64,000 nucleotides of DNA from Polychytrium aggregatum. Lineage: Eukaryota; Chytridiomycota; Chytridiomycetes; Polychytriales. Shown in pieces: positions 994 to 53,846 of the stretch (positions are counted from its first letter, which is position 1; every line of letters begins with the position of its first letter). The position numbers and the translations under genes are program-made. The DNA lies in the NCBI RefSeq assembly GCF_025602895.1, contig NW_026516205.1:1178001-1242000 (forward strand), given 5' to 3'. The notes below the pieces were generated by a model. The model was given only the letters and a program-made list of their open reading frames with translations. It did not search any database and was not told where the DNA came from.

Positions 994-1265
994 GGCAAGA
1001 CCGATTGAATGCGACCGACAAAGCCTGGCGATCGACAAAGCCGGGCGATCGACAAAGCCTGTGCGCTGACGAGCAAAGGCTGGCTCCGCGATCGACATGT
1101 GGACTCGATGCACATCCCCACAACCCGCAGCGACATTCCGGCGAGGCTCGCTGCCCGTGCTCGAGCGCTCTTTCTCTCTCCCTCGCTCGCTGTTCTTTGC
1201 AGTTTCGGACCAGCACAAGACACCGGAATCCGCCGTCTTGCCTCTGCCGTCTCGCAGCCGCCACG

Positions 1266-3657
1266 ATGGCCCTGGTCGACGCATTGTCGCCGTCCAGCGA
1301 CAACCTGTTCGAGTGCAGCGCCCACGGCAAATGCCATGACTTTTTCCTCTCTTACCGAGTCCGCCCCGATTCGAAGGCGGTCGAGGACCTCAAAGAGCTG
1401 CTGTCGTCTGTGGCACTGCGCCGTCTTGACCGGCCTCTATCTATCTTCCATGACATTGACTGCTTGAACGATGCCAAGGACTGCAAGGACGGCTTCCTTC
1501 GGGCCCTCCCCGGCAGCTCGGTTGTGATCCTGTTCCTGAGCAAAGACTCGCTGATGACCATGCAGGCCCGAGAAAAGGACGGCCAGGAAGACAATGTCCG
1601 ACTCGAGGTCACCCTGGCTCTCGAGCTGTTCGAGGCCGGAAAGCCCATCACCGTGATGCCGCTGTGCCTGGATCTGAAGGATGGATCCGGTTACCGACCG
1701 TTTGCCCCGTATGAAGACCCGGAGCTGACGCAGCCGTCATGTCCCGAGACCCACAGCCTCGTCAAGCGCCTCAAAGCCATCCAGATGTATGGCTACCGGC
1801 CAGAGGAGCCCCACAAGCAGCTCTATCGGCTGCTCAACCTCCTCCACCCGATCGCCGTCGACGAGCTCACCAACAAGCACATCTACTCCAAGTACTTTTG
1901 TGACCCCAAGTTTGAGATCGAAATGGACAAGCTCGATGGCCTCCTGAAGCAAATCACCCTGACGGGCCGGGCCATCATCTCGGGCATGGGTGGCATGGGC
2001 AAGTCGGTGCTCGCCCGCCAGTTCCTGCGCTTCATGATGGGCAAGCTCAAGGTCAAGAACCAGACCGAGCTCAGCGACTACATGATGGATACCATCGGGG
2101 TCAAGCCACAGTACAGCAGAGTGCACTGGATAAACTGCTCGGGCGAGTTCTCTGCCCTCTACGACCTCAGCGCCATCTTTCCGGGAGTCGATCGGCAGGA
2201 GATCAAGGAGCATGCTGCATGGATGTTCGCCAACGAGAGGGACTACCTCCTCGTCCTCGACAACGTCGACGACATCCGCATCGTCAACTCGGTGTTCAGC
2301 CACTCGCGATCGCTGGGCTTTGGTGGCGACGTCTTGGTTACGACTCGCCTGCCGCTCTTTCCCAAGGGCCCGTTCCTCGATGCGCTCAAGGCCAAGCTAC
2401 CGACGTTCAAGCAGGAGCCGCTGAAGCTGGAGCGGTGGTCCGTCGAGAAGACCAAGCGGTACATTCTCTCGGCGAGTCCCTCGCTCCAGAGGAAAATCCA
2501 GTCGCTCGAGTCGGTGAAGGCACTCACGCGGATGCTCAGTGTCGTCGACGGCCATCCGCTGGTGGCCCAGTCCTTTGTCTCTCACTTTGAAAACAACAGC
2601 ACTCCGATCTATGAGTTTGAGAACTGCATCGACGAAGTACTGCAGGAGAGCGTCGGTGACGACGAGACGCGCTCGTCGCTCAAGGTCATTGTGGACCAGT
2701 CGATGGAGAGCATGCAGAAGGACGGCGACGAAGGACGAGAGGCCTGCCGCATATTTGGAGCGATCGCTCTGCTCAAGGAGAATGGCATTCACTATCGTCT
2801 CATCAAGGGGATCGCACAGAAGCTGGGGTTATTGATCCAGAGTAAGTGCAACGCAATGCTTGATGGGAGATTGTTGGAGTATGGAATGAGGGACGAGCGA
2901 AGGGTCGGTGCTGGTGCTGGTGCTGGTGCTGGTGCTGGTGCTGGTGCTGGTGCTGGTGAATATCGGGCAATGTCCGATCTGGAAATCCATCGAGCCGGGC
3001 ACTCCTTATGGACCGATGGCTGACTATGCCTCACCTACTTGCCCAGCTGGACAGCTCCTCAAACGAGTGACCCACACCGGGCTTCTTCACGTGGACTCGA
3101 ACGACACCTACCACACACACTTGCTGGTGTCGAAGTTGGCGTGGGAATACGTGCTCAGGGAACCCGAGCTCAAGGCCGCCGATATCAACACCGCCACTGG
3201 CGAGGCACTTTTGGAGCTTGGCTCAGTGCCCACGGATGCCAAAGTACTCGAAAACATTCCGCATCTGGAGCAGTATGCGGCCAAGATGCGCACCAGTGTC
3301 AGCCACACTGACATCCATGTCAAGATTGTCCGGCTCATCGAAGCAATCGAGGGCGAGAAGCGAGCCTGTCTGGGTGCGGCGGCACCCGCTGCCCAGCCCG
3401 AGACAGCGATGGTGCATCCTGTGGCTGAGGTGGGTTTGGCCGCTGGCCCTGCCAACCAAGACACACAGGAGCAACTCAATGAGGCGGTGAGGCTCTGCGC
3501 CTTGGCTCAGGCAGAAAAGTCTGCCGGCAAGCATAGGCGCGCGATCGAGCACTTCAAGCTGGCACTTTCGATCTACAGGACGTCCCTGAGCGACCAGAGG
3601 GACCCAAGGATCCTGGCGATCTACGAGCAGCTGGACATTGGCGCTCCTCCGCCGTGA
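1266..3657 (+). CDS. TIR-NB-ARC-TPR NOD-like receptor (fungal NLR)
   Basis: Predicted intracellular immune/allorecognition-type receptor of 728 aa, exons 1266-2841 and 3047-3657 (GTAAGT donor, phase 1). The N-terminus is a TIR domain (about residues 22-165): HDFFLSYR for strand A, a BB-loop region with FHDIDCLND, VVILFLSKDS, and a helix with RLEVTLALELFE that supplies a candidate catalytic Glu. The NB-ARC ATPase follows, with P-loop GMGGMGKS near residue 240, Walker B LLVLDNVDD near 330 and the sensor-like VLVTTR near 356. After a winged-helix-like stretch, exon 2 ends with a TPR-like helix pair (ALAQAEKSAGKHRRAIEHF). The start is the first ATG ahead of the TIR; the open frame runs further upstream but has no better ATG. 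TIR effectors are rare in fungal NLRs. NAD-cleaving activity is an inference from the family. Confidence 0.85.
2906..2958. repeat. Hexanucleotide (GCTGGT)n repeat inside the NLR intron
   Basis: About eight perfect copies of GCTGGT lie within the single intron of the NLR gene. The run is in an open frame (Gly-Ala), but splicing at 2842/3046 removes it and restores the NB-ARC to TPR frame. Confidence 0.75.
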
Positions 3658-3897
3658 GCGACGTTGCTTGCCAGCGACACCGACTGGGACCTCTCGGGCC
3701 GCATTCTGTTTCTTCATGCATCACCATCCACTTCCACATACATATCACTCTCTCTTTACGGCCATCTCAGTATCGGGCCCTCCTCCTCTCCTGAAAACTG
3801 TTCAGTACATCCATCGATTTGTGTCTCCTCGCTCGACCAAGCCCGGGCGAGAGCCTCCACCCGCATCTAGATACGATGGCGACGAATGTATTACGAC

Positions 3898-49515: not shown

Positions 49516-49844
49516 CACGGGTGAGTGGAAAGGAAACCGGCGCTTGGGTGCAAAGGCGTCGCGAAAGGAGGTCAGCACGGAGTAGTGCTGAGAATGCCGA
49601 GCATGCAGGCAAGGCAGATGGCGCCGAGAATGCAAGGAATGCTGAGGAGTGCCGAGCAAGGGAGTGAAGTATATTGCGCATACCGGAGCTGCTGGGAATG
49701 TGGTCTCGGCGACGGGACAACACAAGCAGGATTCTGTCTTGAGCAGCGGCAGACAAGGCGAGTGGGCTGGGAAGCGGCGCCCGCACGCCCGGAGAGTTTC
49801 GGCGGCGCAATCACATCATGGCCCGAGATTACAGGCAATCCAAT

Positions 49845-49857
49845 AAAAAACGGGACA
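49845..49857 (+). repeat. Left terminal inverted repeat of the Fanzor transposon
   Basis: 13 nt, perfect complement of the right end. The inner side continues CACCCGGGTTTTGA, which is also found, nearly unchanged, in the miniature copy. Confidence 0.8.
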
Positions 49858-49914
49858 CCCGGGTTTTGACCATTGATCGAATATTTTGTTACCCAAAACC
49901 ATCGCGCGCTGGCC

Positions 49915-50847
49915 ATGACCATTCGCCACACATCCGACTTTCGCACCGCCGCATTGCGATGCTACGCCCTCATCCATAGCCTGCGTAAGGTCGCCTCCAT
50001 ATTCAGTGTATCCAAGAGCACCATCCATCGATGGCACCGAGGATGCAAGCTGGATGACCCATCCCGGGTCCCAGCTCGCAGATCCACTTTCTTCGAGCAG
50101 GCATGTCCAGTCATTCGCACCCTGATTGAACAGGACCCGTTCCAGACTGGTCCTGTGTTGCGATGCAAGCTCGAGTCCATCCTCCAGAGGAAAGTATCAC
50201 TCTCACTCTGCCACACTGCCATCCAGCGAGCAGGTCTCTCTCACAAGAGAGCAACACACCTCTACAAGTCCAAGCGACTGGATGAGCGAGTGGCACAGTT
50301 CAGGGACCAGGTCCGCTCCATCGACCCACGACGATTCGTTTTTGTCGATGAGACGGGGATCAGGAAATCCATTTTCCCTCTTTACGGATACTCACCGAGG
50401 GGTGCTCCGCTTCGCCAGCGCAATCACATGAAACACAAGTCTGTCTCAGCTGCATTTGCCATCAACCACTCTGGTGTGCTGCATCGCATGTACATCCCCA
50501 CATCATTCACGACACACTCGATGGTCGAGTTCTTTGAGCGAGCGGCCTTCCCAGACGACTCTGTGGTTGTGATGGACAATGTCAGCATGCACAAGACAAT
50601 GGCTGTCCTGGACTGCATCGAGCGCCGAGGATGGTCAGTGATCTTCACCCCACCTGCCTCACCCGACTTCAATCCCATCGAAAACTTCTTTGGGATTGTG
50701 AAGCATCAGTACAGGAAGGCGGCAGCGCTGAATGCGTCCGAGGGGTTCAGAGTCGGGATGGTGACCCTGTTTGAGTCCGCCGTTCGGAGGGTGCTTCCAG
50801 ATGTCTTCCCACGGCTGATTGAGCGAGCGATGCGCTTCTGGGGTTGA
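49915..50847 (+). CDS. DD34E transposase, IS630/Tc1-mariner superfamily
   Basis: 310 aa cut-and-paste transposase. An N-terminal helix-turn-helix (ALIHSLRKVASIFSVSKSTIHRW, about residues 18-40) should bind the inverted ends; a second, basic HTH-like part follows. The catalytic triad is visible: VDETG (Asp145), VVMDN (Asp221) and NPIEN (Glu256), with 34 residues between the last two. The blocks RRGWSVIFTPPASPDFNPIENFF are typical of the family. I chose the ATG at 49915; the frame is open 42 nt further upstream without an ATG. It lies 250 bp upstream of the Fanzor in the same direction. No frameshift or stop is seen, so the enzyme may be active. Confidence 0.9.
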   Translation: MTIRHTSDFRTAALRCYALIHSLRKVASIFSVSKSTIHRWHRGCKLDDPSRVPARRSTFFEQACPVIRTLIEQDPFQTGPVLRCKLESILQRKVSLSLCHTAIQRAGLSHKRATHLYKSKRLDERVAQFRDQVRSIDPRRFVFVDETGIRKSIFPLYGYSPRGAPLRQRNHMKHKSVSAAFAINHSGVLHRMYIPTSFTTHSMVEFFERAAFPDDSVVVMDNVSMHKTMAVLDCIERRGWSVIFTPPASPDFNPIENFFGIVKHQYRKAAALNASEGFRVGMVTLFESAVRRVLPDVFPRLIERAMRFWG

Positions 50848-50964
50848 GTTCCCTCCAATCAAGCCGCCATTTTCGCGTTCACATCCCTGGCTTGAACCTC
50901 TCGGCGATTTTTGAACAGGGTCACTTCCCCAACCAGCCCGCGCAGACGGGTTCCTGCTCTCGGG

Positions 50965-50970
50965 TATAAA
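50965..50970 (+). promoter_or_regulatory. TATA box upstream of the Fanzor
   Basis: GGGTATAAATG lies 128-133 bp upstream of the Fanzor ATG and 118 bp after the transposase stop. This suggests that the nuclease has its own transcript rather than sharing one with the transposase. Confidence 0.6.
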
Positions 50971-51097
50971 TGCCACACCTTCGTCCTGCTGCTTTCTTCC
51001 CTCATCTCGCCTTGATCTGATCATCGCGCCATTGTACGATAAAAAAGTCTCTGTTCTGACCAGTACCACTGGCAGGCATCCAGCATCCTCTGCCCCC

Positions 51098-53470
51098 ATG
51101 CCTCCGAAGCGCAAGGGTACCGGTGATGACCAGCCTCGGCCACCCAGGCCCAAGAAAGCCAAGTCACAGTCGGAGCCTGTCTCTGGTTCGTATTCTGACC
51201 CCACGCATGCTTGGTCGTCTGTTGCTCCGTCGCTCACCACCACTGCTTCTGCAGATCCAATGGATGTCGATCCCACCGAGCCTGGTCCATCTACTTCCTC
51301 GAGTACCGGCAAGCGATGTCGCCAGAGCGATGGCACCGATCACGAACGTTGCAACACCAGCAAGTGTCCAAAATACCGGCCCCTCAAGAGTTCTGTCGTC
51401 CCACTCGTGGATGGAAGGTCATCCGCCCCTCAGTTCAGCTGCTTCAAGCAGACGATGGATGGCTGTTGTCTCAATCCCGCTCTCCGCGACAAGATCCAGG
51501 CCACCGTCGAGGCCATGACCCAGATCCAGTTCGAGGCATCCAGGCTGCTCAACCTGCACATCCTCCGGTGCATCGAGCAGGATCTTCCCGTCCCCGTCAT
51601 CTCCAAGTCCACCCCTGCTTTCATCCGCCAGTGCTTTAAGATCGTCCAGGCCGATGTGCTCTCCCCGACCAGGGATACCAAGAAATACAACGAGCATCTG
51701 GTCGCTTCCTTTCGCGACTACCAGACCACTCGGCACGCAGACCTGCCTCCGGCCCCTCGTCTGCCTGATGGTGCTCACAGTCAGCTTCTCACTCTCGCTG
51801 TCAACGCCTATGCTACCAACTGCACCACCCACCTCGATCTGGCCTACTGGCGACTCCTTCGCCGCTTCTGCGCTGCCGTCTTCCCAGCCAACAAGCATAA
51901 GCACGAAGCCATCGAGGCCTGTCTCGAGCTCTTCGAGAAACCAGGGCAGACTCCACCCAAGGCCGATCTCGAGTTCCTCTATCCCGACTTTGGCCACGTC
52001 CTGGACGAGTTTCGGTACAGCAACGACCAGGACCGCTTCCGGGCCCTCCATCGCCTCTCACACCATGTGAGAATCCTCGCCCGAGACAAGATGGTCGACA
52101 ATGTCCACAAGTGGATCGACTGTGACATGCCCGCCCTCCGAGTCACCGAGCTGCAGCGCCAGGCCAAGCTGGACGAGCTCACTGCCCGAGGCATTCCCTC
52201 CGACGACAAGAGGTTCACCAAGGCCAAGTCTGAGCTCGGCACCACCAAGTCCAAGATCAACAAGCTGGCATCCAGGATCAAGTGGGCTCTCAAGCAGCTC
52301 GCTCTTGACACTCCTCCGGCCGTGTGCACGATGGTTCCTCTGTGCACTGCCACGGCCAAGTATGTCAAGATCGACACGGTCACTCTCTGGGAACTCCTGG
52401 GTCCAAAGAAACGCCTTGGACTCACCCGGGACAAGCTCAAGGAACAAGGTGATGACGGTGTCAACAACCAGGATCGTCTCTGGCGCAGTTGCTTCAAGTT
52501 GCGTAGTTCCCTCTTCCGTGACCGGGATATCAATCACAAGCTGTTCAACTACGAGATCAGCACCGATGGCATTGGATGCACCATCGGCCTCGTCAAGTTT
52601 CTGCCTCGAACCGATCGCACCGAGACCTCCGAGCCTCCTCCGACCGCCGAGCAGCGCATCCAGGCCCACATCGGCGACCCAGACCCCGATCGCACCACTT
52701 GGATTGGCATCGATCCTGGAGTCGGCTCCATCTTCACGGCGGTCATCCAAGCACCGGGCCACCAAGACGAGGTGGTCTCATTCTCCAATGGCCACTACCA
52801 GCACATGTGTGGCCATACGTCCGACACCAAGTGGCACAACACCATGAAGTATCGACTCAGCATCGAGACCTGGATGTCGACCACCCCCTCGCCCAAGGTG
52901 TCGTCCTCGGAGGCTTTCAAAGTCCATCTCACCCATGTCCTGCGACCGGAGCTGCGAGTGCAGCTCGACTTCCACCTTGGCAAGAAGGCCCGTCACCATC
53001 GATTCACGGGCCACAAGAGGCGCCAAGTGGCCGTCGACAGGATGTGCAAGGCCGTCCTGAAGCACGCCCCGATACGGACCGATGTGGTGATCGCCTTTGG
53101 CAATGCATCATGGCGACAGGGCAAGGGCTATGCATCCAGCCCTCGGAGGCAGCGATTTGCTCGGTACTTTGAGCAGTTCGAGCACCACCGACGCCGTCCC
53201 AATCACCATCATGGAAGTGTCAAGGTGGCCTCGACGAACGAGTTCAACACCTCGCAAGTGTGCTCCAAGTGCCTGGAGCCAGTTCGGTTGGAAGGACTCG
53301 ATGCGCCCAGTGTTGCGAATTCCCACTTTGTCAGGAGCTGCAAGAATCCCAGCTGCCAGACGGTGTGGAATCGCGACGTCAATGCGGCGCGCAACATGAT
53401 CACAGTATGCAGGTCGATTGTGGAGACCGGAGAGCGACCGGTGGTCTTCACTCGGAGGCTGCCAAAGTGA
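51098..53470 (+). CDS. Fanzor: eukaryotic TnpB-like RNA-guided nuclease
   Basis: 790 aa, intronless. The start is the ATG at 51098, giving MPPKRKGTG...RPPRPKKAK, a bipartite nuclear localisation signal. A long N-terminal alpha-helical region carries many basic residues (RNA/DNA-binding lobe in the family). The C-terminal RuvC nuclease has RuvC-I WIGIDPGVGS (Asp539), then GHKRRQVAVDRM, a central VVIAFGNASW and RRQRFARYFEQFEHHRRR. Next come the zinc ribbon TSQVCSKC (Cys722, Cys725) with Cys748 and Cys753, and RuvC-III NRDVNAARN (Asp760). The motif order D...TSxxCxxC...CxxxxC...RD is the Fanzor signature. Characterised members cut DNA next to a target motif using a guide RNA from the element's right end. 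The usual RuvC-II Glu position reads GN (Asn669); Glu692 or Glu695 are candidate replacements. Confidence 0.92.
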   Translation: MPPKRKGTGDDQPRPPRPKKAKSQSEPVSGSYSDPTHAWSSVAPSLTTTASADPMDVDPTEPGPSTSSSTGKRCRQSDGTDHERCNTSKCPKYRPLKSSVVPLVDGRSSAPQFSCFKQTMDGCCLNPALRDKIQATVEAMTQIQFEASRLLNLHILRCIEQDLPVPVISKSTPAFIRQCFKIVQADVLSPTRDTKKYNEHLVASFRDYQTTRHADLPPAPRLPDGAHSQLLTLAVNAYATNCTTHLDLAYWRLLRRFCAAVFPANKHKHEAIEACLELFEKPGQTPPKADLEFLYPDFGHVLDEFRYSNDQDRFRALHRLSHHVRILARDKMVDNVHKWIDCDMPALRVTELQRQAKLDELTARGIPSDDKRFTKAKSELGTTKSKINKLASRIKWALKQLALDTPPAVCTMVPLCTATAKYVKIDTVTLWELLGPKKRLGLTRDKLKEQGDDGVNNQDRLWRSCFKLRSSLFRDRDINHKLFNYEISTDGIGCTIGLVKFLPRTDRTETSEPPPTAEQRIQAHIGDPDPDRTTWIGIDPGVGSIFTAVIQAPGHQDEVVSFSNGHYQHMCGHTSDTKWHNTMKYRLSIETWMSTTPSPKVSSSEAFKVHLTHVLRPELRVQLDFHLGKKARHHRFTGHKRRQVAVDRMCKAVLKHAPIRTDVVIAFGNASWRQGKGYASSPRRQRFARYFEQFEHHRRRPNHHHGSVKVASTNEFNTSQVCSKCLEPVRLEGLDAPSVANSHFVRSCKNPSCQTVWNRDVNAARNMITVCRSIVETGERPVVFTRRLPK

Positions 53471-53554
53471 TCTGATCTATTTCTTGTGGCTTTGCTTGAC
53501 GCATGCCATCACATACTACCTGTTCATGGAAACGGCTATATTGTCCCGTTTTTT
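53430..53554 (+). ncRNA. Putative Fanzor guide-RNA (fRNA/omega-RNA) scaffold region
   Basis: In Fanzor and TnpB systems the guide RNA comes from the 3' end of the nuclease gene through to the right end, with the guide being the flanking DNA just outside. Here 53430-53485 is kept at 55 of 56 positions in the 143 bp miniature element (58811-58866, inverted), with weaker similarity out to the right end. That covers the last 41 nt of the reading frame and the 3' non-coding segment. The prediction rests on position and conservation; I have not folded it. AATAAA at 53559-53564 lies just outside the element. Confidence 0.4.
53542..53554 (-). repeat. Right terminal inverted repeat of the Fanzor transposon
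   Basis: TGTCCCGTTTTTT, the exact complement of the left end at 49845-49857; one further T follows on the outside. Confidence 0.8.
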
Positions 53555-53846
53555 TCTGAATAAAGTGTAGGCCGGGAGACTGGCCAATGTGCGACAGCGC
53601 TCATTTTTTTCTGTGCGCCCAGCCGAGTACCTCCCAGCAAGGTTTCGCTCGTCCACGGCCCCATATCAGCCCAGGAGCCCGCCACAGACCCTCGCCTCGA
53701 CTCGCAGCATCGGCAGCCCGTCCAGAAACCCAGCATCGACGACCAAGGCTCAGGCTGCCGATCCAGGGCATACGAGCTTCCGATCCAGGCATCTGCAGTC
53801 CGTCTATCGCCCAACCAAACTCCGTTTTCCTTGGCATTTCGCAGCC

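Follow-up and report, generated by a model that had tools for sequence, protein, structure and literature searches.

A Tc1/mariner transposon with a DD34E transposase and a Fanzor1-type nuclease in Polychytrium aggregatum: copies, junctions and possible homing

Fanzors are proven nucleases; as of 2023, their natural role was described as unknown (PMC10432273). Here we describe a transposon with a Fanzor1-type nuclease gene in a 64,000-nucleotide stretch of the genome of the chytrid Polychytrium aggregatum (the window; contig NW_026516205.1, G000:C223:1178001-1242000), along with its copies in the same genome (64.7 Mb in 418 contigs were searched). Elements of this kind are already known, because a 2013 paper described Fanzor1 together with a Mariner-like transposase (PMC3627910), and are little-tested; the element itself is an ordinary member. 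New here is what the copies show, that is, the site and junction statistics across copies, which are possible because one genome holds about 250 Fanzor-bearing copies.

The most similar elements, PGv-1, PUl-1 and PUl-4, which represent Fanzor1 in Tc/mariner transposons, combine a Mariner-type transposase and Fanzor1 within one element bounded by terminal inverted repeats (TIRs), with TA target duplication, and have Fanzor-only relatives with the same TIRs (PMC3627910). Four related elements singled out in that report, PGv-1 among them, occur in one copy each and diverge toward their 3' ends, in contrast to the many copies found here. Spu-1 of the chytrid Spizellomyces punctatus, which encodes the Fanzor1 SpuFz1, resembles our element in its inverted repeats, the conserved bases of the target-adjacent motif (TAM) before the left TA and the right-end scaffold, TAM and scaffold being predictions for our element, and its 134 ghost copies beside 42 Fanzor copies correspond to the end-only copies described below; however, that report found no transposase with the Spu-1 repeats, whereas here the transposase lies inside the element (PMC10432273). 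TnpB of IS200/IS605, a nuclease that acts in retention and gene drive, is similar in its flank-derived guide, a TAM that is the insertion site and the cutting of the empty site that triggers copying back, but belongs to a bacterial element with a single-strand TnpA (PMC11870625), whereas the element here is a eukaryotic DDE cut-and-paste transposon for which homing is proposed. SfAV and other virus and insect Fanzor1 elements, in which the TIR and target duplication are predicted to lie in the guide-RNA scaffold, are non-autonomous and of unknown transposon family (PMC10711439), unlike the element here. None of the matches listed in the literature, with subscription papers outside coverage, is a published study of Fanzor homing.

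The element and its two proteins

The window holds one intact Tc1/mariner (IS630-type) transposon, at positions 49832-53567, in which the genes for a DD34E transposase and a Fanzor1-type nuclease are both intact (Table 1). A preliminary description, made from the sequence of the window, had proposed one transposon with these two genes, and this is borne out: the element recurs elsewhere, 39 of its copies were retrieved for alignment, and the order TIR-transposase-Fanzor-TIR, flanked by TA, is found at many unrelated sites, so that the two genes form a single mobile unit. Both frames are complete and intronless, as had been stated, with the nuclease in a single open frame. Of the inverted ends, described as perfect over 13 nt, the inner 13 nt are indeed perfect; the true TIRs are 26 bp long, reach about 13 bp further out at each end and are identical at 19 of 26 positions. 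All three features tested for membership in Tc1/mariner-IS630 were found, namely, a DDE transposase of the DD34E/DDE_3 type, TIRs at both ends and TA duplication, the last inferred from occupied sites because no empty site was found.

The transposase has the catalytic residues D145, D221 and E256, the last two being separated by exactly 34 residues, and matches Pfam DDE_3 (E 8e-24) and NCBIfam IS630 (E 1.3e-35, over cut-off). The nuclease matches Pfam Cas12f1-like_TNB (E 4e-9, over cut-off) and is not placed outside the Fanzor clade: in the comparison of its profile with all solved structures, Fanzor1 of Parasitella parasitica comes first (E 1e-4), Spizellomyces SpuFz1 second (E 0.003), and G. 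theta Fanzor1 is found at E 0.16. The Fanzor1 motif D...[TS][TS]xx-C4 zinc finger-RD (PMC3627910) is present (D539, TSQVCSKC 718-725, C748, C753, RD 759-760), as are the signatures DPG and TDG (PMC10711439; GIDPG 537-541, TDG 489-491), and the nuclease also carries four zinc-finger cysteines and NRD. Two values speak against the assignment: as a single sequence, the nuclease reaches SpuFz1 only at E 0.53, and it scores 25.7 bits against an NCBIfam TnpB cut-off of 100. The nearest relative in the database, of metagenomic origin and 486 aa long, has 33% across most of the C-terminal part; among the 7993 candidates scored in a search with the whole protein, none had E <= 0.001. A structure model made for the question of a REC, WED, RuvC and NUC fold had a mean pLDDT of 36 and was unusable. 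The 24-mer around the TATA box that had been ascribed to the nuclease gene (TATAAA at 50965) has 2 mismatches in total over 39 copies; a candidate bipartite nuclear localization signal at the N-terminus (KRK ... PKKAK) was recognized by visual reading.

Three P. aggregatum gene models (P0121, P0122 and P0124) join a C-terminal piece of Fanzor to host proteins unrelated to it (AMP-binding/NAD-binding, F-box and protein kinase); these may be wrong models or real captures.

Copies, target sites and left junctions

Genome-wide, with up to 3 mismatches allowed, the left part of the transposase is found 672 times, the between-gene region 247, the Fanzor start 249 and the Fanzor end 602 times, counts that take in both haplotypes wherever both are assembled. 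By difference, about 350-420 copies hold both end regions without the middle; three of these end-only copies, fetched whole, are 306-695 bp long. The 17-mer of the left end has 198 exact matches, and the count of 261 for the right-end pattern is not a fair denominator because this pattern tolerates no change in T-run length.

The integrity of the genes was assessed in two samples, the 39 score-ranked copies, which favour intact Fanzor, and copies collected by exact anchors in contig order (C1-C70). Among the former, the Fanzor frame is complete in 32 of 39 and the transposase frame in 18 of 39; the contrast in distinct indels, 1 in Fanzor and 22 in the transposase, is misleading because of the sample bias and persists in a weaker form. 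In contig order, 17 of the 31 paired Fanzor genes have the exact length, in 8 the difference is a multiple of 3, and 6 have lost the frame; all changes lie between -27 and +48. The notion that Fanzor never gains indels was accordingly rejected, 14 of the 31 having a changed length. The 49 paired transposase genes comprise 13 of exact length, 12 off by a multiple of 3 and 24 that are not, and 25 of them lost at least 75 bp, so that a frame-breaking net length is commoner in the transposase (24/49) than in Fanzor (6/31; p 0.009). In 51 of 56 copies with the middle anchor, the distance to the Fanzor end departs from the expected one by -18 to +48 bp at most, and the contig-order list shows no copy with the reverse pattern, a working transposase without Fanzor. 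Fanzor-bearing copies without a working transposase are therefore common, judging from the contig-order lengths. Both genes are under purifying selection: across 32 copies, non-singleton variants give ratios of nonsynonymous to synonymous polymorphism (pN/pS) of 0.25-0.29 for the transposase and 0.26-0.41 for Fanzor, compared to 0.50-0.53 for singletons, and the non-singleton variants of Fanzor include 138 nonsynonymous and 168 synonymous ones, against a neutral 2.53:1.

Two further observations concern the copies. Transposase deletions of 243 bp and 134 bp occur in all four combinations in L037, L034, L035 and L038, which occupy different sites; their separate and joint occurrence may stem from recombination among copies or from deletions that arose repeatedly. 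Directly downstream of L020, the stretch L020:5244-5864 is part of a second, related Fanzor family, with a 70% DNA match to the 3' part of Fanzor and its own right end, TGTCCCGTTTCTTTCTGGATAGACTGTA.

The insertion sites are oriented. The 86 independent sites consist of 32 from the ranked copies less duplicates and the rest from the contig-order lists; 4 rows were excluded (3 site duplicates and 1 too-short flank), and one further site was lost, its left end being unmatched. The base preceding the left TA is T in 80 of 85 readable sites, compared to 156/1144 (14%) in the window background; there is no mirror preference on the right, where A follows the TA in 16/81 (background 166/1144). Because TA is palindromic, a T on one side only shows which way the element lies. 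At the right end GTG precedes TA, with G as the final base in 33/34, and therefore the element's own junction shows no TTA before its predicted guide target. In SpuFz1 copies, a conserved CA before the left repeat forms, together with TA, the TAM CATA (PMC10432273). By the same logic, the TAM of the nuclease here is predicted to be TTA, a difference between two nucleases that share little sequence; by inspection of the left and right junctions, this predicted motif would be present at the empty site and is absent at the occupied one.

Some left junctions carry sequence of the flank. The left tip matches the element's own right flank over at least 6 nt at 9 of 86 sites, compared to a mean of 0.41 and a maximum of 4 in 5000 flank shuffles, and the mirror test on right ends yields 0 of 85 at this length and 1 at 5 nt, where 1.04 are expected. 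After L027 was dropped, its tip being also present elsewhere, 8 scars remain: L045, C24:473691, L031, C8:68443, L019, C68:91141, C6:91372 and C52:26268, the last with CA in place of TA on the right. In the scars, 5-11 nt of the right flank after TA replace the left tip; flank stretches longer than 11 nt were looked for at left tips and none was found. Microhomology of 1-6 nt between scar and TIR was detected by script at 7 of the 8 sites, and the eighth shows CCAA by eye. Elsewhere, beside one copy's right end, TAAGGCGATCCAATAACAGTGTA (L133; C52:6964-7019, minus strand) resembles a left-tip/right-tip excision scar of another copy.

Proposed homing and the alternatives

What is observed comprises intact genes, both ends, a family of hundreds of copies, sites with T ahead of the left TA, left tips that are chimeric and, as detailed below, second haplotypes that are occupied. 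These observations enter an explanation that we regard as somewhat probable: in this cut-and-paste Tc1/mariner (IS630-type) transposon, the DD34E transposase moves the element among TA sites, and the Fanzor1 nuclease retains it. A right-end transcript, comprising the Fanzor 3' end, TIR and TA, would serve as the scaffold, and the guide would be the part that runs on 3' into the flanking host DNA. The loaded Fanzor would recognize TTA together with that flank, that is, the empty site only, because in an occupied site the TA of the right end is preceded by G instead of T. A cut inside the protospacer would be repaired from the occupied homologue or sister, such that the element is copied in; wherever the TAM-side end kept the first 5-11 nt of the protospacer and these annealed to the TIR by microhomology, a chimeric left tip would result. 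Exactly such a one-sided scar is predicted if the protospacer is broken away from the TAM and an occupied template is then copied. Both proteins could also act in trans on non-autonomous and end-only copies. We infer homing of the element by Fanzor, namely, cutting of the empty site and template copying, from these indirect footprints.

A candidate guide RNA lies at the right end. The last 130 nt of the element form a three-stem fold (z -2.55), the last stem of which joins the right TIR and TA with a subterminal repeat, and such pairing of TIR and TA has been reported for scaffolds of Fanzor1 (PMC10711439). Within the element, diversity is lowest in the right TIR (0.0096 vs 0.04 for Fanzor); the right end is too invariant for covariation, and an Rfam search gave 0 matches. 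The predicted guide of the window copy contains, at 53570-53585, a self-complementary GGCC...GGCC hairpin that might weaken it.

In a more tentative extension, possible without being quite probable, the scars are fossil junctions of Fanzor-driven homing, the element is re-copied into every emptied or still empty allele, ghosts use their own guides, and the same breakage and repair reshuffle element interiors through ectopic conversion, with the result that nearly unrelated family members may occupy the two alleles of a single insertion. If this is true, the scars are natural-genome evidence for the service of Fanzor to its host element in a eukaryote. One genome combines the transposase, intact Fanzor, non-autonomous Fanzor copies and end-only copies and predicts a TTA TAM and a guide for each copy; the junction scars make homing testable, and the copy population is the valuable part.

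Several observations weigh against homing. No empty site was seen among the 22 sites queried, occupied second haplotypes are equally expected if the insertions are older than the haplotype split, and the RNA guide and cleavage are predictions. Of 13 once-only left tips, 8 are the scars, 3 have no flank match and 2 match at one deviant base only; one-ended transposition, considered below, would likewise yield chimeric left tips joined by microhomology. Comparable folds occur elsewhere in the element, where stretches inside genes reach z -2.8, and some other bins equal or exceed the 3' end of Fanzor in synonymous depletion.

Queries with joined flanks revealed a second contig with the flanks at 11 of the 22 sites, and all 11 are occupied (the left flank of L033 matched in part only); 10 sites showed none, and 1 has one flank at a contig end. 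For the site in the window, no second contig was seen. The lengths differ by -83 (L004), -2 (L006 and L007), -124 (L010), 0 (L015), -27 (L023), +6 (L011), -109 (L029), -8 (L034) and about -34 to -107 bp (L033), and the second haplotype of L005 (G000:C14:63010-95401) is 28 kb longer, with nested insertions. Six fetched pairs share both flanks (one only the nearest 480 bp on the left), and their elements differ by 1, 40, 98, 109, 120 and 131 substitutions; the flanks are mostly 99.6-100% identical, with the exceptions of the downstream flank of L013/L025 (98.8%) and of L020/L026, which has a discordant second repeat. Between 78 and 100% of the differences per pair are variants also present in other copies, and across copies linkage disequilibrium (LD) has dropped to its floor once positions are more than about 50 bp apart. 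Same-site elements often differ far more than their flanks, a pattern that looks like ectopic conversion among copies but may also come from assembly mixing. L009/L039 was rejected as an allelic pair because the right flank alone is shared; L009, L039 and C52:94864 have one right flank and two left flanks, C52:94864 having that of L039, through ectopic recombination or a mis-join.

That the mosaic copies and allelic differences are assembly errors in a repeat of hundreds of copies is a somewhat doubtful reading, which concerns this evidence only and is compatible with homing. The L009/L039/C52 case fits a mis-join, the LD floor within about 50 bp could also come from consensus mixing, and the second repeat next to L020/L026 is likewise discordant (95.6%). 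However, in one pair a single base of 3738 differs, and in another only the interior does, with identical outer stretches; the differences include length changes of 83-124 bp; allelic pairs have rare left tips in common though their lengths differ by 264 bp; there is no N in 349,555 bases; and a low-copy repeat with 97% paralogues is ~100% identical between contigs.

One-ended transposition, which would leave Fanzor uninvolved in the tips, is the chief rival of homing, though an unlikely source of the scars. The transposase would join the right end alone to TA, and the left flank would extend a few nt into the target and then switch to the left end by microhomology, with the T before TA being a preference of the transposase complex. 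The two TIRs are unlike, and the ends may therefore behave unequally; yet this route should also yield right-end chimeras, of which there are 0 of 85 at 6 nt or more, against 8 scars on the left, it permits flank stretches beyond 11 nt, which were not seen, and the TA step, acting on a palindrome, gives no reason to expect T on one side only. Least of all can the footprints be attributed to a Fanzor that is a mere passenger or a regulator of transposition, with old and fixed insertions: this is decidedly improbable, for although occupied second haplotypes require no homing, old insertions would be shared, as flanks that differ by ~0-0.4% in most allelic comparisons allow, and regulatory and methyltransferase roles were proposed for Fanzor in 2013 (PMC3627910), it leaves the one-sided T and the left tips unexplained, and SpuFz1 and others are proven RNA-guided nucleases (PMC10432273).

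Coordinates and surroundings

Table 1. Observed and predicted features of the transposon, in window coordinates
Feature	Position	Strand	Remarks
Predicted target-adjacent motif TTA	49829..49831	+	flank T + TA
Left TA	49830-49831	+	target duplication
Left terminal inverted repeat	49832..49857	+	26 bp
DD34E transposase, IS630/Tc1-mariner type	49915..50847	+	310 aa, intact; ATG 49915, stop ends 50847
TATA box of Fanzor gene	50965..50970	+	TATAAA; surrounding 24-mer nearly invariant in 39 copies
Fanzor1-type RNA-guided nuclease (predicted activity)	51098..53470	+	790 aa, intact
Predicted omega-RNA scaffold	53440..53569	+	putative; Fanzor 3' end, 3' UTR, right TIR, TA
Right terminal inverted repeat	53542..53567	+	26 bp; ends GTG, and GTG before TA does not restore TTA
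Right TA target duplication	53568..53569	+	
Predicted guide (host flank)	53570..53589	+	by analogy; length assumed from SpuFz1, ~15-20 nt (PMC10432273)

The preliminary description had placed the insertion between the divergent promoters of a MORN gene and a cation-efflux (CDF) gene; the CDF gene is supported, and MORN was not found in the 3 minus-strand open reading frames tested, which do not amount to a full search. Elsewhere in the window, positions 1190-3743 have 97% paralogues on C35 and C382, with weak NB-ARC/TIR matches below cut-off. A retroelement that is young is also present in the genome: among 150 listed RVT_1 matches, most score identically and many have an intact 1284-codon frame, and they lie in clusters.

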